From: Idiomarina seosinensis
GTDB lineage: Bacteria > Pseudomonadota > Gammaproteobacteria > Enterobacterales > Alteromonadaceae
Direction: 5' to 3'
Length of the DNA stretch: 64,000 nucleotides
Assembly (NCBI RefSeq): GCF_003987275.1
Contig: NZ_PIQF01000001.1
Coordinates: forward strand, 992,001 to 1,056,000
Of the stretch, positions 10,661-59,874 are shown piece after piece (the first letter of the stretch is position 1; the number at the start of each line of letters is the position of its first letter). The position numbers and the translations under genes are program-made. The notes beneath the pieces are model-generated. The model was not told the DNA's origin and ran no database searches. It saw only the letters and a list, made by a program, of their open reading frames with translations.

Positions 10661-12408
10661 AACAACTTACCCTTATTGCCTCAGCAATACTTTTTAGCGC
10701 TGGCGTTACTGCTCAAAGCTGCGAAAACAACGCCCAGTTGGTCGCGATTCATGATGTTCAGGGAGCAGCTGAAAGCTCACCGATGGAAGGTAAACAAGCC
10801 ACCGTATCCGGTATTGTCACAGCCAACTGGAGTAATAAAAATCAGCTAAGTGGTTTTTTTATCCAGTCGCCAACGGACCATGTCGATGATGATCCGTTAA
10901 CATCTCAAGGTCTGTTTGTTGCAACCCAAAATATAAGTCATAAAGCGGAGGTTGGTACTCAGGTTCGGGTAACCGGCACAGTTAGTGAAATAAACGGTCT
11001 TACTCAACTAACCAATCCAAGTGCCATCTATGACTGCGGCCCGGCGGAGCAACAGCCATCGACTATTACTGTAAGCTTGCCGTTTGACTCGCGCGCTCAA
11101 GCCGAAGCGTTGGAAGGAATGCAGGTTATCGTAGAAGGCGATGAACCGTTGACGATTTCTGGCCATTACCAATTTCCTCGTCATGGCTACTTTGATGTTT
11201 CTGCCGGACGTCTCTGGACCCCAACTCAAGTCGCTAAACCCGGAAGTGCCGCTAACGCGCGACGCGCCAGCAATCGGCTAAACCGACTACAAGTGGACGA
11301 CAACAGCAACCAGCAACCCGACGTGCTGCCACATCAAAGTTTATTTCATGGCCCACAAAACAGTTTACGAAGTGGCGCGAGACTAAAGCCGATCAGCGGA
11401 ATTTTATCGCAGTATAATGACATTTACCGGTTGCAACCGACTGTCGATCTGCAACTTGCAGAGCGCTCCAAGATAACACCAATATATCCTAAGCGCACCG
11501 AGCATCTTCGGGTTGCTAGCTTTAATGTGCTGAATTATTTTAACGGCGACGGCAAGGGTGGCGGCTTTCCAACTGAACGCGGCGCTCACTCACCGGAGCA
11601 ATTAAAGCGTCAGCAACAAAAGATTATCGCCGCACTGGTTGCACTTGATGCAGACGTGTTGGGTTTAATGGAAGTAGAAAATGATGGTTTTAGTCAGTAC
11701 AGCGCTATTACTCAACTAACAAAGGCATTAAACCAAGCCCAGAGTAAAACTTACGCTATCGCTCAGCCGCGCTCAGAGCGGGTGGGAAGCGATCAAATTA
11801 GTGTTGCTATTATCTATAACTCCGAGCGGCTAACTCCAGGCTCGCATGCTAAAACTTTGGTACAGGGCCCTTTTACATGGGGTAGCCGGGTACCATTAGC
11901 ACAGGTATTTGTTGATAAAAACAACGATAAAACCTTTACTGCGGTAGTTAATCATTTTAAATCAAAAGGAAGTTGTCCTGATAGCGGCTCTAATGCTAAC
12001 CAACATGATGGTCAGGCATGTTGGAATTCTCTGCGACTAGAGTCAGCCGAGTCACTACTGTCATGGGTGGCTAACGAGCAATTCCCGGCACCGGTTTTAT
12101 TGGGGGATTTTAATGCTTATTATCACGAAGATCCGATCCAATACATGACCTCTAACGGGTACAAAAATGTTTCCTCCGAACATGACTACTCATACGTTTA
12201 TGACAGTCAGGCCGGTGCATTAGACCATATTTTAGTGGCTGATGAATTGGTGCCCTCTATCGACTTGGTGCAACATATCAATTTTAATGCCGATGAACCG
12301 GGCTTTTACGACTACCGTGATAAAACGTACTATCAACCCGGCCCCTATCGGTCATCAGATCATGATCCACTTGTCGTTGACTTCGATTGGCGCGAATCTG
12401 GCAAGTAG
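10657..12408 (+). CDS. Extracellular endonuclease of the ExeM/NucH type
   Basis: The start ATG at 10657 overlaps the MarR stop; the open frame continues upstream but the signal peptide MKQLTLIASAILFSAGVTAQ fixes this start. The 583-residue product has an N-terminal OB-like region (about 25-150; EGKQATVSGIVTANW) and a C-terminal endonuclease/exonuclease/phosphatase domain from about 285: RVASFNVLNYF, GLMEVEN, LLGDFNAYYHEDP and [11 protein letters not shown] carry the metal and catalytic residues. Such secreted nucleases degrade extracellular DNA for nutrition or biofilm dispersal. The last 49 bases overlap antisense the end of the next gene. No C-terminal sorting tail is seen, unlike some longer ExeM proteins. 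Confidence 0.87.
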   Translation: MKQLTLIASAILFSAGVTAQSCENNAQLVAIHDVQGAAESSPMEGKQATVSGIVTANWSNKNQLSGFFIQSPTDHVDDDPLTSQGLFVATQNISHKAEVGTQVRVTGTVSEINGLTQLTNPSAIYDCGPAEQQPSTITVSLPFDSRAQAEALEGMQVIVEGDEPLTISGHYQFPRHGYFDVSAGRLWTPTQVAKPGSAANARRASNRLNRLQVDDNSNQQPDVLPHQSLFHGPQNSLRSGARLKPISGILSQYNDIYRLQPTVDLQLAERSKITPIYPKRTEHLRVASFNVLNYFNGDGKGGGFPTERGAHSPEQLKRQQQKIIAALVALDADVLGLMEVENDGFSQYSAITQLTKALNQAQSKTYAIAQPRSERVGSDQISVAIIYNSERLTPGSHAKTLVQGPFTWGSRVPLAQVFVDKNNDKTFTAVVNHFKSKGSCPDSGSNANQHDGQACWNSLRLESAESLLSWVANEQFPAPVLLGDFNAYYHEDPIQYMTSNGYKNVSSEHDYSYVYDSQAGALDHILVADELVPSIDLVQHINFNADEPGFYDYRDKTYYQPGPYRSSDHDPLVVDFDWRESGK

Positions 12409-30258: not shown

Positions 30259-31587
30259 ATGACAAAAAAATACCAGCGCGCCCTATATTGGTTCTCGCAC
30301 GATCTACGACTCAACGACAATGCTGCTCTAACCATAGCACAGCAGCAATGTGAGCGACTCGCTTACTGTTATGTTATCGATAGGCAAGCCCTCACTAGGG
30401 GGCGCTACGGTATGCCCTCTTTAGGTAAGCATCGTCTGCGTTTTATTATGCAGTCATTAGCCGAGCTAAAGCAGCAATTAGCCGAGGCCGGGCACCAACT
30501 TATCGTGCTTAACGGCGAACCACTTGAGGAGCTTAGTGCGTTAATTAGCCAGTACAGTCTGGACGCGGTGTTTGGAGCAAGGACTGCCGGTATTTACGAA
30601 CAACGTCGTTGGCAACAACTGGCGAAAAGGTTTCCCTATCTGAGCTTTCAGCAAATTGACAACTCCACCTTATTTGCAGAACAGCAGCTGCCTTGTTCCA
30701 CTAATGAACTGCCCGCTAGTTTTAGCCAGTTTCGTAAACTGGTCGAGCCGCTTTCAGACTCACTGCCCAGCAAGCAACTTTATAACCCGAACTTTAACCA
30801 CAAGACGCTGGTGATCAACAAGCATCATCAACTGCCGCAACTGCCGGAACCATCCGGAGCTTTAGTCGAGGGTGGCGAACTTGCCGCAGCCCAGCATTTA
30901 CAGCAGTACTTTAGCAGCTCCGCCCCTGCCCGTTATAAACAAACCAGGAATGCCTTAGAAGGTTTTGATCAATCAACCAAACTTTCCGCATGGCTGGCTG
31001 CTGGTAATCTTTCTCCACAACAAGTGGTTAATCGGGTGCGTGACTATGAACAACAATATGAGGCTAACGACTCAACCTATTGGATACTATTTGAATTACT
31101 CTGGAGAGATTACTTTTTTTGGTATCTGATCCGTCACCAGCACAAAGTTTTTAGCTTTAAAGGTTTGAGTGATAAACGACCCAAAACCAGTTTTTATCCG
31201 GGCCGTTTTAAACAATGGTGTGAGGGTAATACTCCCTATCCTTTAGTGAATGCCTGTATGAAGCAATTAAATGAAACCGGCTATCTGTCAAATCGTAGCC
31301 GTCAAATCGTGGCCAGTTGTTTGATTAACGAATTGGGTATCGACTGGCGTTACGGGGCAGCCTATTTCGAGCAGCAACTTATTGACTATGATGTAGCCTC
31401 AAACTGGTGCAACTGGCAGTATATAGCAGGCGTTGGCGCGGACCCTCGAGGGGGGCGTCAATTTAATTTGCAAAAGCAGACCAGTCAATTCGACCCTGAG
31501 GGTGAATTTATAGCGCGCTGGCGAGGCGATAAAACATCAGTGCTCGATCATAATGACGCGGCTGATTGGCCGGTGGTTAATAATTAA
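30259..31587 (+). CDS. Cryptochrome DASH / photolyase family protein
   Basis: A 442-residue cryptochrome/photolyase. The N-terminal Rossmann domain begins ALYWFSHDLRLNDNAAL and binds an antenna cofactor. The FAD domain has the DASH-type marks: LLWRDYFFWYLIRHQHKVF, SNWCNWQYIAGVGADPRGGRQFN and KQTSQFDPEGEFIARW. The WQY motif has Trp at the position of E. coli photolyase Trp382 and Tyr at Trp384, as is usual in DASH proteins. DASH proteins repair cyclobutane dimers mainly in single-stranded DNA and may signal. It has no obvious operon partner; a PAS-GGDEF gene converges on it. Confidence 0.93.
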   Translation: MTKKYQRALYWFSHDLRLNDNAALTIAQQQCERLAYCYVIDRQALTRGRYGMPSLGKHRLRFIMQSLAELKQQLAEAGHQLIVLNGEPLEELSALISQYSLDAVFGARTAGIYEQRRWQQLAKRFPYLSFQQIDNSTLFAEQQLPCSTNELPASFSQFRKLVEPLSDSLPSKQLYNPNFNHKTLVINKHHQLPQLPEPSGALVEGGELAAAQHLQQYFSSSAPARYKQTRNALEGFDQSTKLSAWLAAGNLSPQQVVNRVRDYEQQYEANDSTYWILFELLWRDYFFWYLIRHQHKVFSFKGLSDKRPKTSFYPGRFKQWCEGNTPYPLVNACMKQLNETGYLSNRSRQIVASCLINELGIDWRYGAAYFEQQLIDYDVASNWCNWQYIAGVGADPRGGRQFNLQKQTSQFDPEGEFIARWRGDKTSVLDHNDAADWPVVNN

Positions 31588-31594
31588 CTGCGAT

Positions 31595-32503
31595 TTATTG
31601 GGATTGCGCCAGTACTACTGCGTTTTTCCCCTCACTTTTCGCCTGATACATGGCTTTATCCGCCATATCGATAATGTTTTCTACGGTATAGCATTTTGAT
31701 AGCTGGTCACACTGACACAGGCCAATCGATAAAGTTACCGGCAAATGTTCCGATTCAATGCCGGTGACTAGCTGAGAGCGCAGCCGTTCCATCATTTGCA
31801 ACGCATTATCAGCTGAAATCATCGGGTGGATTGTGGCAAACTCGTCACCACCTATCCGGGCAATATGGTCCGAATGACGACTGCAATTAGTAATAAGCCG
31901 GGCAATAGACTGCAGCACCTCGTCACCGTATTGGTGACCAAACTTGTCATTAACCTCTTTAAAGTCGTCCAGATCAATAAACCCAACAGCAAATGGCGTG
32001 CCCTGCTCTGCCAACTGTTGTAATTCATCGTTTAACTGAGCGACAAATGCTCTGCGATTCATTACCCCAGTTAAGTGATCCGTCAGGGCCTGACGCTTCT
32101 CATACTCAAGTTCGCGGCGAATCTTTTCTTCAGCCTGTTGTTGCAGCGTATAGTCACGCACAATGGCGACCCCGAATAACTCACCATCGACATCCATTTG
32201 ATTCAGCATAATGTCCACATAAAACTCGGCACCATTACGTCTTACAGCGGGAAAACGTAAACCGTTACCCATTGAACGTTTACCCGGGTGTGAGAAAAAA
32301 CTGCTCAAATGTTGATCATGCTGCTTACGAAACTGTTCCGGAATCAATTGATTTAATGGCAAGTCAATAAGAGTGCTCGACGTATAATCGAACATGTTTG
32401 CCGCCGCTTCATTAGCCGCTACAATATTGCCTTCACAATTAATAACGATAGCTCCATCAGGAATGATTTCTAGAAACTCCCGGAATGTCCTTTTTACTTC
32501 CAT
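31595..32503 (-). CDS. PAS-GGDEF diguanylate cyclase
   Basis: A 302-residue soluble protein. The PAS domain (about 5-120) has EIIPDGAIVINCEGNIVAANEAAANMF and a PAC-like AIVRDYTLQQQAEEKIRRE, followed by a short coiled coil. The GGDEF domain (about 135-300) has an intact RIGGDEF active site and an upstream RHSD inhibitory site (RxxD, five residues before the active site), so it should make c-di-GMP from GTP with feedback control. It lies 15 bases downstream of the PAS-GGDEF-EAL gene, so a cyclase and a probable phosphodiesterase are co-transcribed. Confidence 0.93.
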   Translation of the reverse strand: MEVKRTFREFLEIIPDGAIVINCEGNIVAANEAAANMFDYTSSTLIDLPLNQLIPEQFRKQHDQHLSSFFSHPGKRSMGNGLRFPAVRRNGAEFYVDIMLNQMDVDGELFGVAIVRDYTLQQQAEEKIRRELEYEKRQALTDHLTGVMNRRAFVAQLNDELQQLAEQGTPFAVGFIDLDDFKEVNDKFGHQYGDEVLQSIARLITNCSRHSDHIARIGGDEFATIHPMISADNALQMMERLRSQLVTGIESEHLPVTLSIGLCQCDQLSKCYTVENIIDMADKAMYQAKSEGKNAVVLAQSQ

Positions 32504-34169: not shown

Positions 34170-34724
34170 TTAAAATGCGACTGGACAATAACAGCCTTTT
34201 GCCGCGAGGTTGATCCAACCAGACTGCTTTTGGCTATGCCGCGCGTTTACCAGCGGTATCAACTGCTCAACAAAACTGGTTTCGGTATTACAAAAAGCAC
34301 CATCGGCATAAGGTCCCAAATAGACTAAATGTTCGTTTTGATTAAAAATTATAATAGCTGGCGTGGCTGGAATATAATTTTGTAAAGCAGATATTTGGTC
34401 GATATCGAGCTGATAATTATGGCCCTTATTAGCGCTGACTTGTCGTTTTACTTGAGCCTGGTGGCCTTGAGTTCGCCAGTTACAGCGACAATCTTTCTGA
34501 TTAATGTGAAAAACTGCGCCAGCTAATTCATCGGTATGTTTTCTTAATTGAGCTTTTAGCTGCTCAGTAAACCCCTCGTCAGCTATTCGTGTTTGCAGCC
34601 GGCCAGAGCCATCAAACCAGGTCAGTCGAGCATCGAGCAGCCACCACAATCCAACCAAAATGATAGCAAACCAGCTTACCACCAGCACCACCAGCCATGG
34701 TTGGTTTCGCTTTCTATTACACAT
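34170..34724 (-). CDS. Membrane-anchored thioredoxin-like protein (DUF6436 type)
   Basis: The ATG at 34724 overlaps the chemoreceptor stop by 8 bases and has CAGG just upstream; a GTG at 34739 is a weaker alternative. The 184-residue product has an N-terminal membrane helix ([21 protein letters not shown]), then a periplasmic domain with a thioredoxin-like course: [13 protein letters not shown] (Cys79, Cys81), [22 protein letters not shown] and a C-terminal GCYCPV. The CxC pairs replace the usual CxxC. DUF6436 is my best family guess. Redox activity is possible but not shown; the coupling with a chemoreceptor is curious. Confidence 0.6.
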
Positions 34725-36201
34725 CAAACCTGGAAACACGCTGTTTTAAGCGCTTTGCAACATCCGCTAATTCTCTGGCTTTATCATCATTGGCCTCAAC
34801 CAACTGCAGTTCCTCGTGTGATAAAGCGGTAAGGGCCTGGGCCGAATTCGACATTTCTCCCGTAGCCGAATTTTGTTGTTCGGTCGCAAATGCCACTTGC
34901 TCGATGCGGTCTGCCATACTCGCCACTCGCTCACTCACGCGTTCAATTAATTCCTTTAAGTCTGAAGACAATGATACGCTCTGGTCTATTTTACTCGACG
35001 CATTACTCACTTTGCTAACCGACAGCTCTACTTCCTCAAGTATTTGCTGAGAAATATCGCTAATTTCTTTGGCGTTGCGTTCAGTCGTCTGAGCCAAACT
35101 TCTCACTTCATCCGCAACCACAGCAAAGCCACGACCATGTTCACCGGCTCGCGCGGCCTCAATGGCTGCATTTAACGCCAACAAATTAGTTTGTTTGGTA
35201 ATGTCATTAATCGCTGTAACCACCGTATTGATACGGCTGCTTTTTTGCTCCAGAGACTGAATGTGTTGATTCGCCTGATCGATCGTTTCGCGAGCTGAGA
35301 CGATCTCTGCATTAACCTGTTGCGTGTAGTCAACGGCCTGACTGCTTGTGTCTAAAGATTCATTGGCTGCTTCCCGGGCTTGCTGCGCCTGATCCGAAAT
35401 CGAGGCAATGGTACTGCCCATCTCATCAATAGCGCTAACGATTCGTTCGATTTGTGCCGCTGAATTTTCGCGTTTACCGGTTAGGGTCCGCGTGTTAGTT
35501 GTCAATTCATCAGAGTTCTGATTAACCGTAGAACTCAGATCATACGTCTCAGCAATACTCTCGCGGACGGTATTAATTAAGTCAGCAAATCGCTGTGTTT
35601 CGGGATTATCGGCAACTATTGAGGTCTTTAGGTTTATCCGTTGCTTATCACTGACAATAGTTTCTATCGCTGACTTTATCGTTATTGCCGTTTTCGCCTC
35701 AACATAGCTCTTATGCGAAATAAAGGCTAAAACTGCGCCCTCGGCAACGGCAAAGCTCGCATGAATGGCTAAAATACCCAGCGTCACATAGCCTTCAGCA
35801 AAAATATAAACACCAACATCGTTTAGCTGCAGAACAAAAAACAGTACATGATGAACGGCAACAACCGTCACGCTGGTTACCAAAACTTTCCAGTCTCGGT
35901 AGTAAATCAAAAATGCTAATACCGCAAAAATTTCAAAGTGCATTTCAACCAGCCCCATCGTCTGGTCAATATGCAGCGCGGTAATTAGCTGTATCGCCGC
36001 AGCTACCGTATGCCGGGTTATTGGCTGATGCGGCAACCAGCGGATTAACGCAAGAGGCAAGGAAACAATCACCAATGACAGACCAACGGGTAATAACCAT
36101 TCGCCCGTGAAAAAACAAATCAGGACGGTAATCGCCAACTGACTTAACAATACACCGGTAAAGACACGGTTGGCGGACAGAGTCCAGGGATAAGCAGACA
36201 T
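34717..36201 (-). CDS. Methyl-accepting chemotaxis protein with a multi-helix membrane sensor
   Basis: A 494-residue chemoreceptor. The N-terminus (about 15-180) holds about six membrane helices and no large periplasmic domain; inside are several His residues ([18 protein letters not shown] and [11 protein letters not shown]) that could bind a metal or haem. After a short linker comes the cytoplasmic coiled coil with the conserved tip [20 protein letters not shown]. The tip binds CheA and CheW. There is no C-terminal CheR-docking pentapeptide: it ends RVSRFDV. A signal acting in the membrane (redox, oxygen, light-driven energy change) is more likely than a periplasmic ligand. Confidence 0.93.
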
Positions 36202-41445: not shown

Positions 41446-43224
41446 ATGATCGACGTACGCAAACTTTTTGTTCTATTCATGCTTGTTTTAGTCAGTCCTT
41501 TTGTCGCTGCGTCGACCTGGGCCTCGGCAAACAGCGCCAACTTGTATTTGAGCGGCAGCCTCGACGAAGTTCAGTTGACTCACTATTCACGCGTACTCTA
41601 TGACGATCGCGGGCAACTGTCATTAGCCGATATTCAGAAAAATACTGAGCAATTTGTCCCCGTGTTAAAGCCAGCCCAATTACACCTTGGCTACTATGAC
41701 GGTACTGTCTGGCTTTCAAATGTTATTACCAATACTTCAGACGATGAGCTATTAAAAGTTTTATCCTTTGATTACGCTAACCTGGATAAAGTCTCGGTAT
41801 ATGTTGTAAACGAAAACGGTAAGTTAGCCAGAGAAATGCAGTCCGGGTCGCACGTGGCGAGCGACAAACGTACCTTACAAAACCGTCACCCCTCGTTTCC
41901 TTTAACCATACCGGCAAAACAAACAGTTCAGGTGTACACAAAAATTGAGAGCAATGGTAGTTTAACCGCTTTTCACCGGCTCTACTCTCCGGCAGTCTAC
42001 GATTCCACCTTCAGTACCGAACTATTCTGGATATCACTATACTGCGGCATGCTATTTGCGCTGGGGCTTTATAACCTTTTACTCTTTATCTCGTTAAAAC
42101 AAAAAACCTTTCTTTTTTATTCCCTTTTTGTATCCAGCTTCCTGATTGGCACGTTGTCAATGAACGGTATTGGCCCGCAACTATTTTGGGACCACAGCGC
42201 CTTAAACGTTAACCGAGTTATGGCGTTTGGTTTCTGTGCCGCTGGGTTTACTGCAACGTTATTTGCACGGGATTTTTTAAACCTAAAACAAAACAATCGA
42301 TTTTGGTATCGAGTTACATACTTGCCATTGTTTGTATCCGGCAGCGGACTGATCGGTGCCATCCTGCTCTCCGCACAAAACGCATTGCTATTATCCGATT
42401 TCAACGGGTTAGTCGCCGGGGTGGTACTGCTGAGCTGCGGCATTGGTTGTTTAATAAAACGGGTACCCGGTTCAACACTGTTTGTCATCGCCTGGACATT
42501 GTTACTCTCAGGGGCAACCATTCACGCGCTGCGCAACCTGGGAGTTCTGCCAACGCACTTCTTCACTTTGTACGGAATGCAAATAGGGTCCGCGCTGGAA
42601 ATGATTCTGTTGTCATTTGCTATCGCCGCCAAATTTAACCAACTAAAACAAGACAAAGAACGAGCCCAGGAAGGCATGTTAACCGCACTAAAAACCAACG
42701 AAGAGCAACTTGAAAATAGAATTGCTCAACGGACCTACGAACTTGAGCAAATGGCAAAGCATGATGGCTTAACCAACCTATTTAACCGTAATGGACTTAA
42801 CGAAATACTCTCTAAAGTCATGCAAAGCTGCGATTCGGCGGCGACACCAGTGACATTATTTATGTTAGACGTTGATGAGTTTAAACCGATTAACGACAAC
42901 TATGGTCATGACGTTGGGGATAAGGTACTCATCGTGTTAGCTGATAGAATCCAAAGTGCAATCCGCGACTGTGATGTGGCTGCACGTTTTGGCGGTGATG
43001 AGTTTATTATTGTCACTGACAGTTTGCATGACGATGCTGAAATAACCCAGTTTATTGAACGTCTGCAAAAACACCTTAATCAACCGATTCAGGTGCGCCG
43101 GGATCTGTCGTTAACCGTATCAACAAGCATTGGCTACTATCGGGCAACTACCCAGTTGTCGGTTAACGATTTATTAAAACGCGCGGACCAGGCAATGTAT
43201 GAGGTAAAGAACCGTCAGCGTTAA
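41446..43224 (+). CDS. 7TMR-DISM-GGDEF membrane diguanylate cyclase
   Basis: A 592-residue protein. A signal peptide (FVLFMLVLVSPFVAAST) precedes a periplasmic 7TMR-DISMED2-type beta domain (about 35-180; LHLGYYDGTVWLSNVITN). Seven membrane helices (about 190-395) begin with ELFWISLYCGMLFALGLYNLLLF, typical of DISM receptors. A coiled coil leads to GGDEF (about 430-590) with intact RFGGDEF and an RDCD inhibitory site. It should make c-di-GMP in response to a periplasmic, probably carbohydrate-like, ligand. Its last codons form one arm of an inverted repeat. Confidence 0.93.
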   Translation: MIDVRKLFVLFMLVLVSPFVAASTWASANSANLYLSGSLDEVQLTHYSRVLYDDRGQLSLADIQKNTEQFVPVLKPAQLHLGYYDGTVWLSNVITNTSDDELLKVLSFDYANLDKVSVYVVNENGKLAREMQSGSHVASDKRTLQNRHPSFPLTIPAKQTVQVYTKIESNGSLTAFHRLYSPAVYDSTFSTELFWISLYCGMLFALGLYNLLLFISLKQKTFLFYSLFVSSFLIGTLSMNGIGPQLFWDHSALNVNRVMAFGFCAAGFTATLFARDFLNLKQNNRFWYRVTYLPLFVSGSGLIGAILLSAQNALLLSDFNGLVAGVVLLSCGIGCLIKRVPGSTLFVIAWTLLLSGATIHALRNLGVLPTHFFTLYGMQIGSALEMILLSFAIAAKFNQLKQDKERAQEGMLTALKTNEEQLENRIAQRTYELEQMAKHDGLTNLFNRNGLNEILSKVMQSCDSAATPVTLFMLDVDEFKPINDNYGHDVGDKVLIVLADRIQSAIRDCDVAARFGGDEFIIVTDSLHDDAEITQFIERLQKHLNQPIQVRRDLSLTVSTSIGYYRATTQLSVNDLLKRADQAMYEVKNRQR

Positions 43225-47212: not shown

Positions 47213-48670
47213 ATGCCGATCAATGTTATCTGGTTAAAACGTGATCTTCGTTTGCACGATCATGAACCGTTAAAGAAAGCGTCTGAATCGACTTTTCCTG
47301 CGCTTTTGCTATATGCCTTCGAACCGGGTATGGAAGCCGATCCTCATCTAAGCGAACGTCATTTTAGATTTATTATCGAGAGCCTAAACGACATCAAGCA
47401 GCAAAACCCCGAAGCCGCGTTACTGGTTAAACGCGATTCGATTCTAAACATTTTAACGGAGCTGCATTGCGAATTTGGTATCAACCAGTTATTGAGCCAC
47501 CAGGAGATTGGATTAAATTATACCTTTCAGCGAGACATTGAAGTAGGCCAGTGGTGCCGGAATAACCAGATCAATTGGGCTGAATCTTCGAGCGGCGCCG
47601 TTATCCGTGGATTAACCCACCGTCACGATTGGGATAAACGCTGGCACCAACAGATGCGTGCTTCTGCCCAACATCCTCAATTAGAGCAAATTCAGTGGCT
47701 ACAGCCGACACCACAATCTGATTCACTCCCTGATCAGTGGCAACAATCAAACCACCATTTCCAACAAGGTGGGGAAATAAACGCGTGGTCCACACTGAAC
47801 TCATTTTATGCCGGACGTGGTAAAAATTACTATCGTGAACTATCGAGCCCATTGACTGCAGAAACCGCCTGCTCACGATTGTCGCCCTATATCGCCTGGG
47901 GCAATATTAGTCTGCGGCAGGTCTACCATACAGTTTTACGGTCGCGCAAACGACCCGGCTGGAGTCGTTCACTACGAGCACTTTCATCACGGTTACATTG
48001 GCACTGCCACTTTATTCAAAAGTTTGAAAGTGAACCCAGTATGGAATTTGACCACCTTAACCCAGGCTATCGCGATATGCCGGTCAATAAAGGAAACACC
48101 AAAGACCACTATTTGCACGCATGGAAAAACGGTCAAACCGGTGTACCTATGATTGATGCCTGCATGCGCTGTCTGCACCATACCGGCTACATAAATTTCC
48201 GTATGCGTGCGATGTTGGTTAGCTTTTTAACGCACCACCTGGCACTTGACTGGCGGGAGGGAGTCACTCATTTAGCCCAATTATTTTTAGATTTTGAGCC
48301 GGGCATTCATTACGCCCAATTTCAAATGCAGGCTGGCGTGACCGGAATTAATACTATCCGTATCTATAATCCTGTAAAGCAAGGTGAAGACAAAGACCCG
48401 CAGGGCGAATTTATCAAACGATGGTGTCCCGAATTAACCGATCTCCCCGACTATTTAGTGCACCAACCCTGGCAAGTAACGGCCTTAGAGCAACAGCTAT
48501 ACGACTTTAAGTTGGGCGAACACTACCCCGAGCCTGTAATCAACCTTGAACAAGCCGCAAAAGACGCGCGCGAGAGGCTATGGCAATGGCGCAAAAAACC
48601 ACAAGTGAGAAACTCCAGAAAAAGGATACTTAACCGACATGTCGCACCAAAAAAGTCACCTTCCCAGTAA
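47213..48670 (+). CDS. Divergent photolyase/cryptochrome family FAD-binding protein
   Basis: A 485-residue protein. The N-terminal domain begins [20 protein letters not shown]. The FAD domain has [47 protein letters not shown] and [26 protein letters not shown]. Where E. coli photolyase has WQW (Trp382-Gln-Trp384), this protein reads FQM at 370-372, and the Asn378 position appears to be His366. Repair of cyclobutane dimers by the usual route is therefore uncertain. Its end overlaps the DUF2256 gene, a known companion of such proteins. Confidence 0.87.
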
Positions 48671-48794: not shown

Positions 48795-49424
48795 TTATTG
48801 TTCGGTATTTGGAATAATTTTTAGTTCAACACGACGATTCTGTTCGCGACCACTTGCGGTATTATTATCGGCAATTGGCTGGCTTTCGCCATAGCCGTAA
48901 GTCGTTAAACGACGCTGATCAACGCCATTTCCTGTCAGGTAATTACGAACCGCCATTGCCCGATTTAAGGACAACTGTTGATTGTATTCTGCAGCGCCAG
49001 TACTGTCTGTATGACCTTCCACCATCATTGTGGTTTTTTCATATTTTTTCAGCACCTTCGCTACGTCGTTTAAGACCGGATAGAAGTTCTGCGAGATAGA
49101 AGCACTGTCCGTGGCAAAGGTAATGTTCCCCGGCAACTGCAAACGAATATTATCGCCATCACGAATCACCTGAACACCGCTGCCGGACAGTTCATCACGA
49201 AACTCCTGCTCTTGCTTGTCCATGTAGTTACCAATGGCGCTGCCTGCCAGCGCACCTACAGCGGCCCCCCAGATGTACCGACTTTTATCGTGATCGCCGG
49301 TGCCTTTACCCAGCAAAGCACCAGTGACTGCACCAATCGCCGCACCTTTCTGGGTATTATTCATATTAGCGCAACCAGCTACGACAAACGCAGACAGAGC
49401 GGTAACAAGAATCAATTTTTTCAT
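48795..49424 (-). CDS. OmpA family lipoprotein with a glycine-zipper domain
   Basis: The ATG at 49424 has AAGGA 9 bases upstream; a GTG at 49430 is less likely. The 209-residue product has a lipobox (VVAGC, Cys18), a glycine-zipper region (about 28-65; GAAIGAVTGALLGKG, GAAVGALAGSAIGNYM) and an OmpA C-terminal domain (about 85-205) with ITFATDSASI, VEGHTDSTGAAEYNQQLSLNRA and GYGESQPI that binds peptidoglycan. It likely anchors the outer membrane to the wall. It is convergent with DUF2256. Confidence 0.92.
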   Translation of the reverse strand: MKKLILVTALSAFVVAGCANMNNTQKGAAIGAVTGALLGKGTGDHDKSRYIWGAAVGALAGSAIGNYMDKQEQEFRDELSGSGVQVIRDGDNIRLQLPGNITFATDSASISQNFYPVLNDVAKVLKKYEKTTMMVEGHTDSTGAAEYNQQLSLNRAMAVRNYLTGNGVDQRRLTTYGYGESQPIADNNTASGREQNRRVELKIIPNTEQ

Positions 49425-49520
49425 AGTCACATATCCTTATTATCAACAACTCATCATAAACATAGCACGTGCCTCAAATTCTGGAGACAGGTTTACGATT
49501 CCTTTACTGTAGCTGAGCCA

Positions 49521-51056
49521 TTACGTCGCCTTATAAAACTGCCAATGCTGTTGTGCTATATAATTCAGCATCTTTCGTAATTCCATCTCCAACGGCCGGT
49601 CTTTAGTCAGCAACGGAAACTCTGTTTGTTGCTGCTCTAAGAAAGCTTGCAGTGGTTCCGTAAGCACCAACTCAGATATATTTTTTCTTAACAGACAGCC
49701 GTGCGATGCTGCCATGAAAGCCGCTGCAGCTACTTGCTCTGTCAGTTCTATAACACGTCTGCAGTCTCTGGCGGCAATGGTCCCCATACTCACTTTATCT
49801 TGATTGTGGCACTCAGTAGAGCGGGAAAACACGCTGGCTGGCATGGTCAGCTTTAAAGCCTCAGCGGTCCAGGCGGAACAGCCTATTTGTACCGCCTTAA
49901 AGCCGTGGCTTAATGGTTTTTCTTCACCCGTCGCAGCAGATAAATTAGCCGGCAAGCCGTTATTACTTTTTTCATCCAGCATCAAAGCCATCTGCCGATC
50001 GTGCAGATCCGCAAGGTTAGCCACCTGAGTTTTTAGCAAGTCCATTACCATGGCAATGTGACCGCCGTAAAAATGCCCGCCGTGATGAATTCGCTGCGCT
50101 TGGCTGTCAACAATAGGGTTATCGTTAGCGCTATTCAGCTCATCCAGTAGCGTTCTCTCTATAAACGGCAACGCGTCCTGTACAGCACCAACAATATGTG
50201 GCGCGCATCGAATTGAATAACGATCTTGTAAACGCGTCTGTGTCGGGTGCGTTTCGGCCACTACGAGATCACTGCGTATCCAAGCAGCGACTTGCTGTTG
50301 TCCTGCGTGGGGTTTTACCGCATGCAGTTGCTCATCAAAATGATACGGATTGCCACCAACAGCGGCCAGAGTGAGGCTGGTAATGCGGCTAGAAAGCTGA
50401 CACAAATAGCGCGCACTATCGTAAGCCAAACAAGCTAAAGCGGTCATTACAGCCGTGCCATTCATTAACGCCAATGCTTCTTTCGGGCGTAACTGGTAGG
50501 GCTCGATACCCAATGCCGAAAAAGCTTCGGAGCTGAGCATTGTTTTGCCTTGGAAGCGCACCTCTCGCTCACCAATTAACGCGCCCGCGATGTAAGACAA
50601 CGGTGTCAAATCACCACTTGCTCCAACACTGCCTTCTTCAGGGATTAGCGGTAAAATATCATGCTGTAACATCAAACTAAGGCGCTGTAATAGCTTATAG
50701 CTGACACCCGAATAGCCTTGGCATAACGAGCCTAACCTAACCGCAAGAATGGCCCGAGTTTCAGCTTCAGAAAAATATTTACCCAAGCCGCAACCATGGA
50801 AACGAGTCAAATTAACGGGTAACTGATTCACCGATTCAAGCGGCACGCTTACCTCGCAGCTATCACCATAGCCGGTGGTAACGCCGTAAATTTTTCCGTC
50901 TTTACGCAGAACATCATCAATAACACGAGCGCCCGCTTCTATCCACTCGATAAAATCAGCGGAGTCATCGAGTACTGCGGACGATTTTGCCTGGCTTAAG
51001 TTAACTACATCGGCGACTGACAGCGGACTACGACTAAAAATGATGGATTGACACAT
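49521..51056 (-). CDS. tal: Aromatic amino acid ammonia-lyase, probable tyrosine ammonia-lyase for PYP chromophore
   Basis: A 511-residue MIO-type lyase. The Ala146-Ser147-Gly148 triad (GSVGASGDLTPL) forms the MIO prosthetic group; Tyr57 in YGVTTGYG is catalytic, and SANDNPIVD, NQDKVSMGTIAARDCRRV are family motifs. The substrate-selective pair, which is His-Leu in Rhodobacter TAL and Ser-His in histidine lyases, reads Phe86-His87 (NLTRFHGCGLG), so sequence alone does not fix the substrate. Its operon with a CoA ligase and PYP strongly suggests tyrosine to p-coumarate. It starts 4 bases after the ligase stop and ends the operon. Confidence 0.88.
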   Translation of the reverse strand: MCQSIIFSRSPLSVADVVNLSQAKSSAVLDDSADFIEWIEAGARVIDDVLRKDGKIYGVTTGYGDSCEVSVPLESVNQLPVNLTRFHGCGLGKYFSEAETRAILAVRLGSLCQGYSGVSYKLLQRLSLMLQHDILPLIPEEGSVGASGDLTPLSYIAGALIGEREVRFQGKTMLSSEAFSALGIEPYQLRPKEALALMNGTAVMTALACLAYDSARYLCQLSSRITSLTLAAVGGNPYHFDEQLHAVKPHAGQQQVAAWIRSDLVVAETHPTQTRLQDRYSIRCAPHIVGAVQDALPFIERTLLDELNSANDNPIVDSQAQRIHHGGHFYGGHIAMVMDLLKTQVANLADLHDRQMALMLDEKSNNGLPANLSAATGEEKPLSHGFKAVQIGCSAWTAEALKLTMPASVFSRSTECHNQDKVSMGTIAARDCRRVIELTEQVAAAAFMAASHGCLLRKNISELVLTEPLQAFLEQQQTEFPLLTKDRPLEMELRKMLNYIAQQHWQFYKAT

Positions 51057-51060
51057 TCAA

Positions 51061-52311
51061 TTAACGACTCATTAAATCCGGTTGTAAATCCCAGTCAATT
51101 TCCTTACCCATATCGTTAGTAGGAACCTGACTGGCGACTCTAAATTGTTTTGGTATTTCATGCGATTCAAGCTTGTCTCGCAACCATTCTTGAAGCTTCG
51201 TAATAAGCATTTCATCAGTTTGATCTGATAACGTCGATGTTGGAACCAGTAGCGCTTTCAGACCACTACTGTCGTTAGAGGCCAAGGTTCTGACTCGCGC
51301 CGTTTTAATCCCCGGGTGCGCGACAATTACTTCAGCGATTCTTCGGGGATATACATTGATCCCATTAACCTGAACGGCTTGATCATGACGCGCTAAAGGA
51401 CGAAAATGCCGTTGATCATGCCACTCCAGAGAATCTGGTAGTGCCACCGTCTCGTCCGTACCGAGCCGGGCCAGCTGTTTTATTGACAACCGTTGCCAGC
51501 TTGGCAAAAGCTGATAAAGTCCCTGCCGCTCAGTGCGCACTCCAATGCCCGACGTTTCTGTGCTACCGTAAACTTCAACAACAGTGTCCAACCCTTTCTT
51601 TTGCAGCGTAGTGAGCGCCTGTTGTTCAACTGGACCACCCGAGCAAACTGCACTCGCTCGCTCAGGAAACCCAATGGGTTGCTGCGCCAGCTGTTCATAC
51701 CAACTCGGAAAGCCCACGATCAAATCATCGTTTTGCAAGCGCTGTCCCTGCACCTGGGAAAAAGCTTTAAGCCCACGCACCACTGAAACGTCTAGAAGTT
51801 CGGGAAGTAATACAGAAAAAATAAAGCCATATATGTGATGCGGTGGCACCACACCAATAACACGTTGGGGTTGAATCTGATTTTGCTTTAAGTACTCAGC
51901 AAAAAATTGGGCTTCTGCGACCAAATGTGACCACTGCTGCTGATGCCGTTGTGGCTGGCCGGTCGAGCCTGATGTCGAGAAGCTGATATTACTGCTGGCT
52001 TTGCTGCGGCTGGTTGCAACCACATCGGCCCAATCGCCAAGGCGGGCAACGCGCAATAAGTAGTCTTCCAGTCCGCTGCTTTCTATCTGAAAAAAATCAA
52101 CCACCCGACTGGCAATCGACATCCATTCGAACGAATCAACAACCACCTCGTCGTCATCACCTTTTGCTTTGCCTGCGGTGGTAATAACGGTATCGGGTAG
52201 CCATTGCCGGCCTTTCCACAGTTGGTTATCTTGTTTGCGTATGCGGGTAAGCTCATCGGCGGCTAAAGCGCCAATGAGACTTACAATCGAAGTTTGTGAT
52301 AATTCAAGCAT
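51061..52311 (-). CDS. pcl: Acyl-CoA synthetase (AMP-forming), probable p-coumaroyl-CoA ligase for PYP
   Basis: A 416-residue adenylate-forming enzyme. The phosphate loop is SFSTSGSTGQPQRH (the usual Lys after Pro is Gln), with VEVYGSTETSG for the A5 motif, QVNGINVYPRR near the hinge, and PTNDMGKEID at the C-terminus with the catalytic Lys. It is about 100 residues shorter than plant 4-coumarate ligases, mainly at the N-terminus, as in ligases that serve PYP. It would activate p-coumarate so it can be attached to PYP Cys69. Its ATG shares one base with the pyp stop (TAATG), so translation is coupled. Confidence 0.88.
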   Translation of the reverse strand: MLELSQTSIVSLIGALAADELTRIRKQDNQLWKGRQWLPDTVITTAGKAKGDDDEVVVDSFEWMSIASRVVDFFQIESSGLEDYLLRVARLGDWADVVATSRSKASSNISFSTSGSTGQPQRHQQQWSHLVAEAQFFAEYLKQNQIQPQRVIGVVPPHHIYGFIFSVLLPELLDVSVVRGLKAFSQVQGQRLQNDDLIVGFPSWYEQLAQQPIGFPERASAVCSGGPVEQQALTTLQKKGLDTVVEVYGSTETSGIGVRTERQGLYQLLPSWQRLSIKQLARLGTDETVALPDSLEWHDQRHFRPLARHDQAVQVNGINVYPRRIAEVIVAHPGIKTARVRTLASNDSSGLKALLVPTSTLSDQTDEMLITKLQEWLRDKLESHEIPKQFRVASQVPTNDMGKEIDWDLQPDLMSR

Positions 52312-52688
52312 TACAGGCGTTTTACAAACACCCAGTAGCTGTCACCGGACAGCGCTTTTTTCATATGGACTTTTACTTTGGTTGGCTTCATTTCATAATC
52401 GAAGGTGTACTCAAACATGGTATTTAAGTCACCGTTTTTAACACCTTCGTCAAACTTGCCTTTAAACTCAGAACTATTGGTGCAAGGCGCTACATCAGTA
52501 AAAAAGTTCTTACCAACAACTGCCGATGGATCACGGCCTGTGATATCACCCTCAGCAGCGTTATATTGAATGATCTTACCTGACCCATCCAGTTGTATTG
52601 CGCCAAACGCTACATCATCTAACTGACCCTTGTCCATAGAGGCTAATTTATTCTCAATATCGTTCGATCCAAACTGCACAATTTCCAT
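52311..52688 (-). CDS. pyp: Photoactive yellow protein
   Basis: A frame opens at 52712, but the ATG at 52688 is chosen: GAGGAG lies 6 bases upstream and the product is exactly 125 residues, the length of the Halorhodospira halophila protein. The chromophore pocket is complete: Tyr42, Glu46, Thr50, Arg52 and Cys69 (DVAPC), which carries the p-coumaroyl thioester. [11 protein letters not shown] and [19 protein letters not shown] match the reference PAS core closely. It should be a blue-light receptor in the cytoplasm with a reversible photocycle. Ligase and lyase follow directly. No output domain is fused, so the signalling partner is unknown. Confidence 0.97.
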
Positions 52689-52768: not shown

Positions 52769-53368
52769 TCAACGGTAATCCCGATTTTTACCGAGGCCCG
52801 CACTAATGGTTAATTGCAGCGCGTCGGCCGGCTTCATATCTAACGACTCAACGCAGTCACTGGGCACAATCACCATGTAACCGCCGACGTTATAGCTCAT
52901 TGGTAAGAAAACCGCGACCTGATCGTCTTTTAATGTTTTTGATAAGCGATCGTCTTTTTTACCACTTTTTTTGGTAACAATACCGATTAAGCGCATATTG
53001 CTGCCCGGTAAGGTCACCATCACCACCGATTCATCAGCAAAGTCCTTACCCGACATCATTTCAAAGATATCGTTAACGGTACCGTACAGACTGCGCAGCA
53101 ACGGCAGTTTATTCATTAAAATGCCCGGCAGTTGCCAGATCCAGTTCATAAAGCGCCAGCGGGCACTAAACCCGATCAAAATAGCAAGTCCCAAAAAGCT
53201 AATGAACGCTAATCCAGGGAAGTAATAGGTTTCACCGAGAATAGCCAGCCATATTGGGCTAAGCCAGGTTTCTATAGTGACCAACAGCCACTGCACCAAA
53301 AACACGGTAACAATAATCGGCAGCAAAATTGCAAAGCCTTTTAATAAAGACTGAATAATAGTTTTCAT
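52769..53368 (-). CDS. DUF502 domain membrane protein
   Basis: A 199-residue protein. Two N-terminal helices (FAILLPIIVTVFLVQWLLV; YFPGLAFISFLGLAILIGFSA) precede the soluble region with IPLLRSLYGTVNDIFEMM-like LPLLRSLYGTVNDIFEMMSG and FLPMSYNVGGYMVIVPSDCVESLDM, the DUF502 signature. Members are conserved in bacteria and plants; the plant COV proteins belong to this family. Function is unknown. It lies 80 bases upstream of pyp on the same strand with a hairpin between. Confidence 0.88.
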   Translation of the reverse strand: MKTIIQSLLKGFAILLPIIVTVFLVQWLLVTIETWLSPIWLAILGETYYFPGLAFISFLGLAILIGFSARWRFMNWIWQLPGILMNKLPLLRSLYGTVNDIFEMMSGKDFADESVVMVTLPGSNMRLIGIVTKKSGKKDDRLSKTLKDDQVAVFLPMSYNVGGYMVIVPSDCVESLDMKPADALQLTISAGLGKNRDYR

Positions 53369-57669: not shown

Positions 57670-59874
57670 ATGAGATCACTCATTAACGCAGTCGGTCTTA
57701 TCGCTTTAGTCGCAGCCACTTTTTTACCGAGTTCCGGGAATACTCGTTCGAACTCTGAATCCCCCCTACAAAACAATACTATTTTGTATGCTGGCTCGGA
57801 ATATTACCCGCCTTTTGAATGGTTGGACGATAATGGCGATGCGCATGGGTTTATTACCGATTTACAGCGCGCCATGGCTGCAACAGATAACACAAACATT
57901 GAATTTCAGCTGTCCTCATGGAGGGCTGCTCTAGATGCAGTCATCGAGGGTGAGGCCGATGCCGTGGCACTAATTCCATCTGATGACCGAAGAGATTTCT
58001 TTAGCTTCACTCAGCCTATACATTACTTAAGTCACGGTATTTTTTCGCACACCAACGGTTCACAGTACACGCAGTTGTCGCAACTTGCCGGGCAAACAGT
58101 CGCCGTCGCTGAAGGTGCCTTTGCCGCGAACAAATTACGTTCGCTAAACCTGGATCTAACCATGCTCATCGCCGCCGACGAACTTGACTGCCTGAGCAAA
58201 GTAGCCAACAAAGCGGCTGATGCCTGTATCGAAGTCAATATCACCTCGGACCAACTGATTAACCGGTACGACCTACCCGTCACCTCTGCTGGAATACAGT
58301 TTTGGCCTCAACCCTATGCCTTTGGCGTAAAAAAAGGCAATGATGAGCTACTCAACCACTTGAATAATAAACTGGCCACTATTATTGTTAACGGCCAATA
58401 CGAAGCCATCTATAAACGCTGGGAGCATTTGCTCGAACCACGTGCGCATGGCGTCTGGAATGCGATACTCAATGCACTATGGTTTATCATTCCATTAACC
58501 TTATTAGCTTTTATCGGGCTATACTGGTCCGTCACACTACGTTACAAGGTTCGCGAAAAAACCGCCGCGCTAAGAATAGAATTACAACAGAATAAAGCGT
58601 TACAGCAACAAATAGAATTTAATGCTGCGCACGACAATATTACGGGTCTTTATACCCGAACTGCATTTTTCAGAGAGCTGGATAAACAGTTAGAACCGGA
58701 CGCTAACGATCACGCCCACGCCGTTACCCTAGTCACCATACAAATTACGAATATAGAATCGATGATAACGGTATTTGGTTATGAAACTGCTTTTAACACC
58801 GTTGCCAAGTTTGGTGAACGTCTTAAAGCAATGCGTCAGTATACGTCTGCACACTTTGGTTCAGGTCTATTCGGGTTAACATTGAGAGACGAATCGAAAA
58901 TGGGCAATGTAATTGATGCATTGCGTGAGCCACTATTTTCCAAGGCCGGTGAAATTGAACCTCAGCTCGCCTTCGGGATCGCTCAATCCCACTGCGCGGT
59001 CGAAAACATAGATGGAGCAGAACTTGTACGACGTGCTATTACCGCATTAACCGCTGCACAAAAAAGAAAAATTCAATATTGTATCTACAGTGATGCAGAT
59101 GAACCCGATGTACAAAATTTGCAGTTACTGAATGATTTTCATAAATTTGGTTGCCAACAATTTGTTCTTTATTTTCAACCGCAGCTCGATATTGCCCGGC
59201 AGAATATTTCTCACGCAGAAGCCCTTATTCGCTGGCAGCACCCGTCGCTTGGCCTGGTACCACCCAATAAGTTCATTCCGTTGCTGGAAGAATCCGGTGG
59301 CATTAAGCAATTAACTTGCTGGGTTATTCAGCAAGCGGTCAATAAAATCCAGAGAGCTGCTCGCAGCGATCCGCAAAACCCGTTAAAACTGAGTGTTAAC
59401 ATCAGTTCTCACGACTTATTAGATGAGGCTTTTTTAGCCTTCGTTCGCAGTGCAATCACTGATATAAATCCATCTCAATTACTATTTGAAATTACTGAGA
59501 GTGGTCTTATTGAAGAGTCTTCTCATGCCAAAGAGGTTATCTATAGCCTTGCTTCAATGGGTATTGGTTGTGCCGTCGATGACTTTGGCACGGGTTATTC
59601 GTCGCTGTATTATCTGAATGAGCTGTCGGTACAGGAAATTAAGCTGGACCAGGTGTTTGTTCAGGCACTTTGTAATAGTCGGCGCAGCTTAACGATTGTT
59701 AAATCGACCATCAATCTAGCCCATGATCTGGGACTGAAAACCGTCGCCGAGGGCGTTGAAGATAAACAAACCTTAGATAAACTTACCGAACTGGGCTGTG
59801 ACCGTATTCAAGGCTTCTACATTGCAAAACCGATGCAGGAAAATGAACTGGACGCCTTTTTGAAAAAAGCTTAA
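57670..59874 (+). CDS. PBPb-GGDEF-EAL membrane sensor, probable c-di-GMP phosphodiesterase
   Basis: A 734-residue protein. A signal/helix (LINAVGLIALVAATFL) precedes a periplasmic substrate-binding domain of the amino-acid type (about 38-265; YAGSEYYPPFEWLDDNGDAHGFITD, RRDFFSFTQPI). One membrane helix (about 275-293) leads to a degenerate GGDEF (about 320-465, active site GSGLF) and an EAL domain (about 480-730) with YFQP, AEALIRW, DDFGTGYSSL and EGVED intact. It likely hydrolyses c-di-GMP under control of a small periplasmic ligand. Confidence 0.93.
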   Translation: MRSLINAVGLIALVAATFLPSSGNTRSNSESPLQNNTILYAGSEYYPPFEWLDDNGDAHGFITDLQRAMAATDNTNIEFQLSSWRAALDAVIEGEADAVALIPSDDRRDFFSFTQPIHYLSHGIFSHTNGSQYTQLSQLAGQTVAVAEGAFAANKLRSLNLDLTMLIAADELDCLSKVANKAADACIEVNITSDQLINRYDLPVTSAGIQFWPQPYAFGVKKGNDELLNHLNNKLATIIVNGQYEAIYKRWEHLLEPRAHGVWNAILNALWFIIPLTLLAFIGLYWSVTLRYKVREKTAALRIELQQNKALQQQIEFNAAHDNITGLYTRTAFFRELDKQLEPDANDHAHAVTLVTIQITNIESMITVFGYETAFNTVAKFGERLKAMRQYTSAHFGSGLFGLTLRDESKMGNVIDALREPLFSKAGEIEPQLAFGIAQSHCAVENIDGAELVRRAITALTAAQKRKIQYCIYSDADEPDVQNLQLLNDFHKFGCQQFVLYFQPQLDIARQNISHAEALIRWQHPSLGLVPPNKFIPLLEESGGIKQLTCWVIQQAVNKIQRAARSDPQNPLKLSVNISSHDLLDEAFLAFVRSAITDINPSQLLFEITESGLIEESSHAKEVIYSLASMGIGCAVDDFGTGYSSLYYLNELSVQEIKLDQVFVQALCNSRRSLTIVKSTINLAHDLGLKTVAEGVEDKQTLDKLTELGCDRIQGFYIAKPMQENELDAFLKKA

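Follow-up and report, generated by a model that had tools for sequence, protein, structure and literature searches.

A probably functional pyp–pcl–tal operon in Idiomarina seosinensis whose lyase groups with those of pigment clusters

In Halorhodospira halophila, the gene for photoactive yellow protein (PYP) forms an operon with genes for a p-coumarate:CoA ligase (pCL) and a tyrosine ammonia-lyase (TAL), and PMC12826048 reports that both enzyme activities have been demonstrated. The same paper describes the PYP of Idiomarina loihiensis as a single-domain protein absorbing at 447 nm, with a pB lifetime of 0.23 s, and reports that blue light reduces biofilm. Of 113 predicted pyp operons it counts no more than 7 with TAL, and it concludes that the enzyme lies elsewhere in the genome or that p-coumarate is taken up (PMC12826048). 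Here we analyze a pyp–pcl–tal gene row in a 64,000-nucleotide stretch of I. seosinensis DNA (GCF_003987275.1, contig NZ_PIQF01000001.1, positions 992,001 to 1,056,000), called the window below. Because the H. halophila layout and an Idiomarina PYP have already been described, this operon is of a known kind, in an already studied genus; the belief of the initial annotation that PYP occurs in Idiomarina is borne out in print, biofilm effect included (PMC12826048).

Judging by sequence, the operon is genuine and probably functional. Gene content, motifs, a lyase tree and co-occurrence across genomes point, with good confidence on our part, to a working pyp operon whose lyase was captured from a clade of pigment-cluster enzymes, a lyase of the same clade supplying the chromophore in PYP-bearing relatives that have no copy in the operon. 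The lyase would convert tyrosine to p-coumarate, the ligase would convert p-coumarate to its CoA thioester, and the p-coumaroyl group would be loaded onto Cys69 of PYP, possibly from one transcript; we propose this route from tyrosine through p-coumarate and p-coumaroyl-CoA to holo-PYP because of the protein families present and the published H. halophila enzymes. The expected product is a single-domain blue-light sensor absorbing at ∼447 nm and acting on separate partner proteins, its output probably being surface attachment, as in I. loihiensis. The three genes, in window coordinates, are:

52311..52688, minus strand: pyp, photoactive yellow protein, 125 amino acids (aa), single PAS domain with Cys69 for p-coumaroyl attachment (TIGR02373, 208 bits; gap-free alignment to PDB 1KOU; pocket residues)
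51061..52311, minus strand: pcl, p-coumarate:CoA ligase-like AMP-binding enzyme, 416 aa (best NCBIfam model TIGR02372; 78 of 80 pyp loci are flanked by a pcl-like gene)
49521..51056, minus strand: tal, aromatic amino acid ammonia-lyase of the FH clade described below, 511 aa, with the 4-methylideneimidazole-5-one (MIO) motif ASGDLT, a putative tyrosine ammonia-lyase (PF00221; motifs; tree)

Coordinates, strand and gene order agree with the initial annotation, as does the tight packing of PYP, chromophore-activating ligase and lyase: pcl lies directly downstream of pyp and overlaps it by one base (TAATG), four bases separate pcl from tal, and the PYP has no fused output domain. On profile score the PYP is a true member of its family (TIGR02373, 208 bits against a cut-off of 143.05; E 3.6e-62), and along its full length of 125 residues it can be aligned, with no gap, to PDB 1KOU, which we take to be the H. 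halophila protein. Residues I31, Y42, E46, T50, R52 and C69 are all present, among them the pocket residues (Tyr42, Glu46, Thr50 and Arg52) and the Cys69 that had been named before. The nearest named pyp loci are those of Idiomarina, and the I. loihiensis PYP (Q5QYH6) is reportedly the subject of a 2009 study by van der Horst. Of the three proteins PYP varies least, at 87–98% identity between the window and five relatives, against 52–60% for pcl and 67–70% for tal (present in four only). Ratios of nonsynonymous to synonymous substitution (dN/dS) were 0.04–0.17 for pcl and tal in two pairs of close relatives.

The lyase belongs to PF00221 (E 9.2e-157). Its selectivity pair is Phe-His (FH); the His-Leu (HL) pair of Rhodobacter-type TAL is missing, and the usual switch therefore says nothing about specificity for tyrosine. 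Motif 2 (CHNQDKVSMG) carries Gln, not Glu, as do all 45 FH rows of our comparison (the window counted twice) and all HL lyases, while all 17 HutH-type rows, which have an SH pair, carry Glu. PMC3992019 gives the Gln versus Glu rule for motif 2 in a figure legend, a rule that does not separate TAL from phenylalanine ammonia-lyase (PAL); by the classical rule, a Phe in the first position of the switch is PAL-like. There, too, the flexirubin TAL FlxA is described as combining a motif 1 like that of histidine ammonia-lyase (HAL) with a TAL/PAL-like motif 2, with a kcat/KM 1010-fold higher for Tyr than for Phe and no product with His (PMC3992019). The window lyase resembles FlxA in that its motif 1 is not of the TAL type while motif 2 has Gln. 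With the BagA/FevW model for tyrosine ammonia-lyases (cut-off 1000), scores reach 395–399 bits in three FH lyases, compared with 284 in the HutH of the window's genome and 266 in one HL lyase. We infer from the sequence that the operon lyase is a tyrosine ammonia-lyase.

Two other substrates were weighed. A histidine ammonia-lyase standing beside pyp by chance is highly improbable, even though NCBIfam ranks a histidine ammonia-lyase model first for the window lyase: the score, 409.9 bits, falls below that model's cut-off of 524, with the genome's own HutH reaching 765.5, and the HutH model TIGR01225 yields 402.1 bits, under its cut-off of 539.15, with the SH and Glu signature missing. That separate HutH (G000:C4:92952; G and L numbers are our handles for genomes and loci) scores 640.6 bits for PF00221 and carries the SH pair together with a motif 2 Glu; the only other PF00221 match in the genome is the operon lyase. 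The FH clade also stands apart with full support, and outside pyp operons its members occur chiefly in pigment clusters. An enzyme acting only on histidine, the finding that by the initial annotation would have undone its claim, is thus unlikely given the HutH signature (SH, Glu) on one side and that of the operon lyase (FH, Gln) on the other. A phenylalanine or broad aromatic lyase, with PYP drawing most of its p-coumarate from plant or algal debris in the surroundings, would suit the Phe at the first switch position, and further points in its favor appear below. We nevertheless consider it improbable, since the lyase stands in a row with pcl and pyp and is under purifying selection in two pairs of relatives, all 13 PYP genomes of the genus keep an FH lyase, and the motif 2 Gln together with the BagA/FevW score points to tyrosine.

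To place the lyase among those of other pyp loci, we took the best 80 of 120 loci from a scan of genome contigs, a set biased to close relatives of the window PYP. A pcl-like gene flanks pyp in 78 of them, the two exceptions (L033 and L056) having pyp at a contig end. A lyase gene flanks pyp in 40, three of these being fragments; lyases shorter than 400 aa (L022, L029 and L042) were excluded from motif typing and from the tree. The 37 full-length flank lyases comprise 24 HL, 12 FH and one YH enzyme, the last from a spirochaete metagenome-assembled genome (MAG). FH lyases occur beside pyp in Idiomarina, Aliidiomarina and Arsukibacterium, and HL lyases in Halomonas, Alkalimonas, Rheinheimera, Ectothiorhodospiraceae and others. 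PDB 2O6Y, presumably the Rhodobacter sphaeroides TAL, is the best structural match of an HL lyase from a Halovibrio pyp locus; the window lyase matches AdmH and tyrosine aminomutase in the PDB better than this entry. The earlier remark that the complete operon is less often described therefore agrees with the published count of predicted operons, but not with these close relatives, where half of the loci have the lyase beside pyp. A search for non-adjacent lyases covered 13 genomes with pyp loci (L016 was left out), and four Idiomarina loci (L009, L015, L017 and L021) proved to have pyp–pcl without an adjacent tal and an FH lyase elsewhere in the genome.

We then examined FH lyases and PYP in 295 Alteromonadaceae genomes. 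PYP was called when TIGR02373 exceeded its curated cut-off (143.05 bits), and weaker matches, found in 39 of 60 matching genomes, counted as no PYP; three of them, at 59–75 bits, could be remote relatives of PYP, and all three lie outside the set of FH-lyase genomes. Lyases at least 56% identical to that of the window counted as FH, which left out the G280 lyase (42% identity; 3 of 13 markers beside it). Pigment clusters were called by counting marker genes beside the lyase, with 13 markers defined from the cluster in L147. Pfam matches in nine of ten proteins of that cluster indicate an acyltransferase, an AMP-ligase, a glycosyltransferase, a lipid A-type acyltransferase, LolA, MMPL, an FAD halogenase-like enzyme, DUF3261 and a ketosynthase; by its architecture we take it to be of the aryl-polyene type.

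FH lyases were present in 67 of the 295 genomes and PYP over the cut-off in 21. In all 51 FH genomes without PYP over the cut-off, the lyase sits beside at least 6 of the 13 markers; these include G184, part of whose sequence reads N and may hide a PYP gene, and other sampled genomes may likewise contain N stretches. The 16 FH genomes with PYP differ: 12 hold an FH lyase outside a pigment cluster, namely in the pyp operon (G000, G197, G218, G247, G266, G271 and G299), directly behind two photolyase/cryptochrome-like genes (G117, G145 and G304) or alone (G041 and G254), and four hold it only in a cluster (G165, G201, G283 and G293). The remaining five PYP genomes (G055, G094, G123, G205 and G306) match by position L035, L050, L032, L049 and L041, respectively, where the adjacent lyase is HL. 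The association between lyase location and PYP gives a Fisher p of 3.7e-10 with G184 dropped (50/50), 1.0e-9 with it scored PYP-bearing and 3.0e-10 with it scored PYP-free. The loci of the second arrangement are:

L151:6455-10849, L152:9206-13536, L154:6163-10563: photolyase-linked lyase loci in three PYP-bearing relatives

A tree of 56 of the 86 distinct lyases (all 45 of the FH and YH kinds, 6 of 24 HL and 5 of 17 SH) recovers an FH clade of 44 rows with support 100/98 and assigns the window lyase a different ancestry from the HL type. Nested within the FH clade, the FH lyases of pyp operons, 13 in number, group together (100/97), and their sister group consists of the three photolyase-linked enzymes (99/92); the other 28 members are 25 pigment-cluster lyases and three lone ones. 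Some inner branches have lower values (88/89, 92/93), and the spirochaete row sits on a very long branch; the tree program warned of long branches. In a quick tree of all 67 FH lyases, parsimony counts three departures from the cluster, each in PYP-bearing genomes (G184 scored PYP-free). The pyp operon of this lineage would thus have captured its lyase once, from the clade of the apparent aryl-polyene pigment clusters. Alternatively, the link between PYP and FH lyases outside clusters may reflect shared ancestry, one capture having been inherited widely and the lone copies being cluster remnants with no role in PYP maturation. This idea fits the small number of departures and the tree, where the lone copies L110 and L158 branch among groups of pigment-cluster lyases from the family. 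We still regard it as rather unlikely: all three departures fall in PYP genomes, the 50 genomes lacking PYP over the cut-off (G184 left out) all have the FH lyase in a cluster and nowhere else, and in the four cluster-only PYP genomes the sole other lyase match is 34–35% identical to the window lyase, two of these matches (L095 and L097) being typed as HutH.

Returning to capture from the pigment-cluster clade, the likely chromophore source in PYP-bearing relatives without an operon copy would be a lyase of that clade in a pigment cluster, behind photolyase-like genes or alone. Among 19 genomes searched in the genus, the FAD-enzyme of the pigment cluster, the single marker searched, occurs in 8 (at least 61% identity) and PYP in 13, all 13 with an FH lyase. 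Of those without detected PYP, four (G184, G234, G259 and G309) have marker and FH lyase and two (G085 and G308) have neither; the window's own genome lacks this one marker. Outside the family, five PYP genomes without an adjacent tal have an FH lyase, in a cluster of 9–12 markers in four (two Pseudomonas, one Halomonas and one Modicisalibacter) and alone in P. guineae.

Not every observation favors this reading. Among 30 further PYP genomes in which the search around pyp revealed no lyase, a set that includes L033 and several MAGs, only five have a lyase of the FH kind; these are 55–58% identical to that of the window, one of them has the pair YH, and one or more cluster markers occur within the short flank of each. 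The remainder comprise two HL (one a fragment), 15 HutH-type (three also with a more distant kind), one short fragment and seven with no match. Pigment-pathway supply would therefore explain part of the missing TAL, not all of it, and the 23 genomes in the last three of these categories are the further point in favor of environmental p-coumarate: uptake or another route would have to serve some PYPs, if those are functional. The Fisher test ignores relatedness, and three departures are too few for significance, which would take six or more independent informative pairs. The window lyase scores below the cut-off of every NCBIfam model it matches, histidine ammonia-lyase models ranking first, and with Phe at its first switch position its product may be cinnamate. 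The window pcl scores 285.6 bits against TIGR02372 (E 4.8e-85), short of the cut-off of 334.7, as does the pcl beside another Idiomarina pyp (L015, 284.9 bits), although TIGR02372 is the best model for the window pcl by more than 200 bits. Promoter-like and terminator-like sites between 49.3 and 53.5 kb are at chance level (5 versus 6.3 expected and 5 versus 4.6 expected, respectively).

The location of FH lyases suggests where the TAL "missing" from some pyp operons lies, and a link between photoreceptor and pigment pathway is plausible. A stronger form of this link, in which both draw on one p-coumarate pool, the cluster lyase supplying PYP where the operon has no tal and the window tal being a captured copy, seems to us evenly balanced between true and false; it covers four genomes of the genus and the cases in Pseudomonas, Halomonas and Modicisalibacter, and if true it would couple light-sensor maturation to membrane pigment production. 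In Idiomarina, in some relatives and in a small number of other gammaproteobacteria, a specific candidate gene for the missing TAL can now be named, one that can be knocked out. The pigment-cluster lyase becomes a testable source of photoreceptor chromophore, with PYP (446 nm) as a visible readout of its activity and the published biofilm effect of the I. loihiensis PYP as a phenotype to test. No text pairing "aryl polyene" with "photoactive yellow protein" was found in the open-access literature, the spelling "arylpolyene" having been looked up only with "Idiomarina".

Some relatives have only part of the operon. In L009, which has the PYP closest to that of the window (98%), pyp–pcl is followed directly by the OmpA gene, with no tal, and the lyase (L110) lies elsewhere and falls on the tree in a group of pigment-cluster lyases. 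G234 and G309 keep the flanks of pyp–pcl but have only a C-terminal pcl remnant and no pyp match between them, from which we conclude that PYP was lost there. Together with the tal-less L009, these losses indicate that the lyase is the exchangeable part of the operon. The remnants themselves (L266:6179-6382 and L267:5861-5971) record the decay of a light-sensor locus in two genomes.

In G308 (L264:6752-9509) and G085 (L265:6775-9523), which have neither PYP nor FH lyase, an intact pcl, 52% identical to that of the window, lies directly downstream of a gene for a PAS-GAF-GGDEF protein; between the two pcl genes, dN is 0.125 and dS is saturated. The idea that this protein is a new p-coumarate photoreceptor was rejected for PYP-like attachment at its PAS domain, because that domain has no cysteine (Pfam was run for L264 only); cysteines do occur in the GAF domain.

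As candidate partners for PYP, the initial annotation had offered the window's cyclic di-GMP enzymes and a chemoreceptor. The domains are there: GGDEF at 31598-32503 and 41446-43221, with two more matches at ∼33.3 and ∼37.7 kb, and the signalling domain of a methyl-accepting chemotaxis protein (MCP) at 34720-36201; the cyclic di-GMP protein nearest to the operon, SBP_bac_3-GGDEF-EAL (57670-59874), is ∼5 kb away. A conserved linkage to pyp is not: tblastn of the window GGDEF, EAL and MCP domains against the flanks of the 80 pyp loci found no conserved partner, in a search that was not exhaustive, since it missed a weak L015 GGDEF seen by Pfam. Among 14 Idiomarinaceae loci, GGDEF occurs in one (L023) and MCP in two (L013 and L018); in L018, an Idiomarina MAG, the MCP match (∼11100-11400) is immediately downstream of tal and points the other way. 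A gene for a PAS protein neighbors pyp in five I. abyssalis-type loci (L015, L017, L021, L270 and L271), that of L015 being PAS-PAS with a weak GGDEF (22.6 bits, below the cut-off). Judged by its sequence, the PAS protein is still present in G234 and G309, where PYP has been lost, and it is not found beside the window operon. The genome as a whole (G000, 2.69 Mb) has 46 GGDEF domain matches, a dense cyclic di-GMP network.

Around the operon lie three further genes:

52769..53368, minus strand: DUF502 protein, upstream neighbor in the same orientation, its end 80 bases away from pyp (PF04367)
48795..49430, minus strand: YiaD-type glycine-zipper/OmpA lipoprotein, downstream neighbor on the same strand, outside the operon (NF053611, 268 bits)
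47213..48670, plus strand: photolyase/cryptochrome-like protein, 485 aa, neighbor outside the operon (PF03441 and PF00875; 51% identical to the gene at L151:7813-9267)

A photolyase link at the window was considered and set aside: the parallel with the photolyase–lyase order of the three relatives may be coincidence, because the window gene is convergent and the OmpA gene stands between it and tal. The encoded protein is divergent, scoring below the cut-off of each NCBIfam model it matches. The window holds a second photolyase-type gene, for a DASH cryptochrome (30259-31587; 497 bits, over the cut-off). A foreign base composition was likewise rejected, the operon's G+C of 0.480 being unremarkable against a mean of 0.465 (standard deviation 0.014) for window stretches of equal size. 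Rfam gave no match within 48.0–54.5 kb.

Compared with described systems, the window operon has the same three genes in the same order as that of H. halophila, and the two PYPs align without gaps; the window lyase, however, belongs to the FH clade, whereas another Ectothiorhodospiraceae genome (L057) has an HL lyase beside pyp. The I. loihiensis PYP is from the same genus and, like that of the window, single-domain, but there an adjacent GGDEF protein has been proposed as binding partner (PMC9664959), and the window operon has no adjacent GGDEF. The R. sphaeroides TAL shares enzyme family, MIO chemistry and the motif 2 Gln with the window lyase and differs in its switch (HL versus FH). The lyases of the apparent aryl-polyene clusters of Alteromonadaceae, Pseudomonas and Halomonadaceae are 53–66% identical to the window lyase and carry the same FH and Gln motifs, but sit among ketosynthase, acyl carrier-like, LolA, MMPL and DUF3261 genes, whereas the window lyase sits in a pyp operon.

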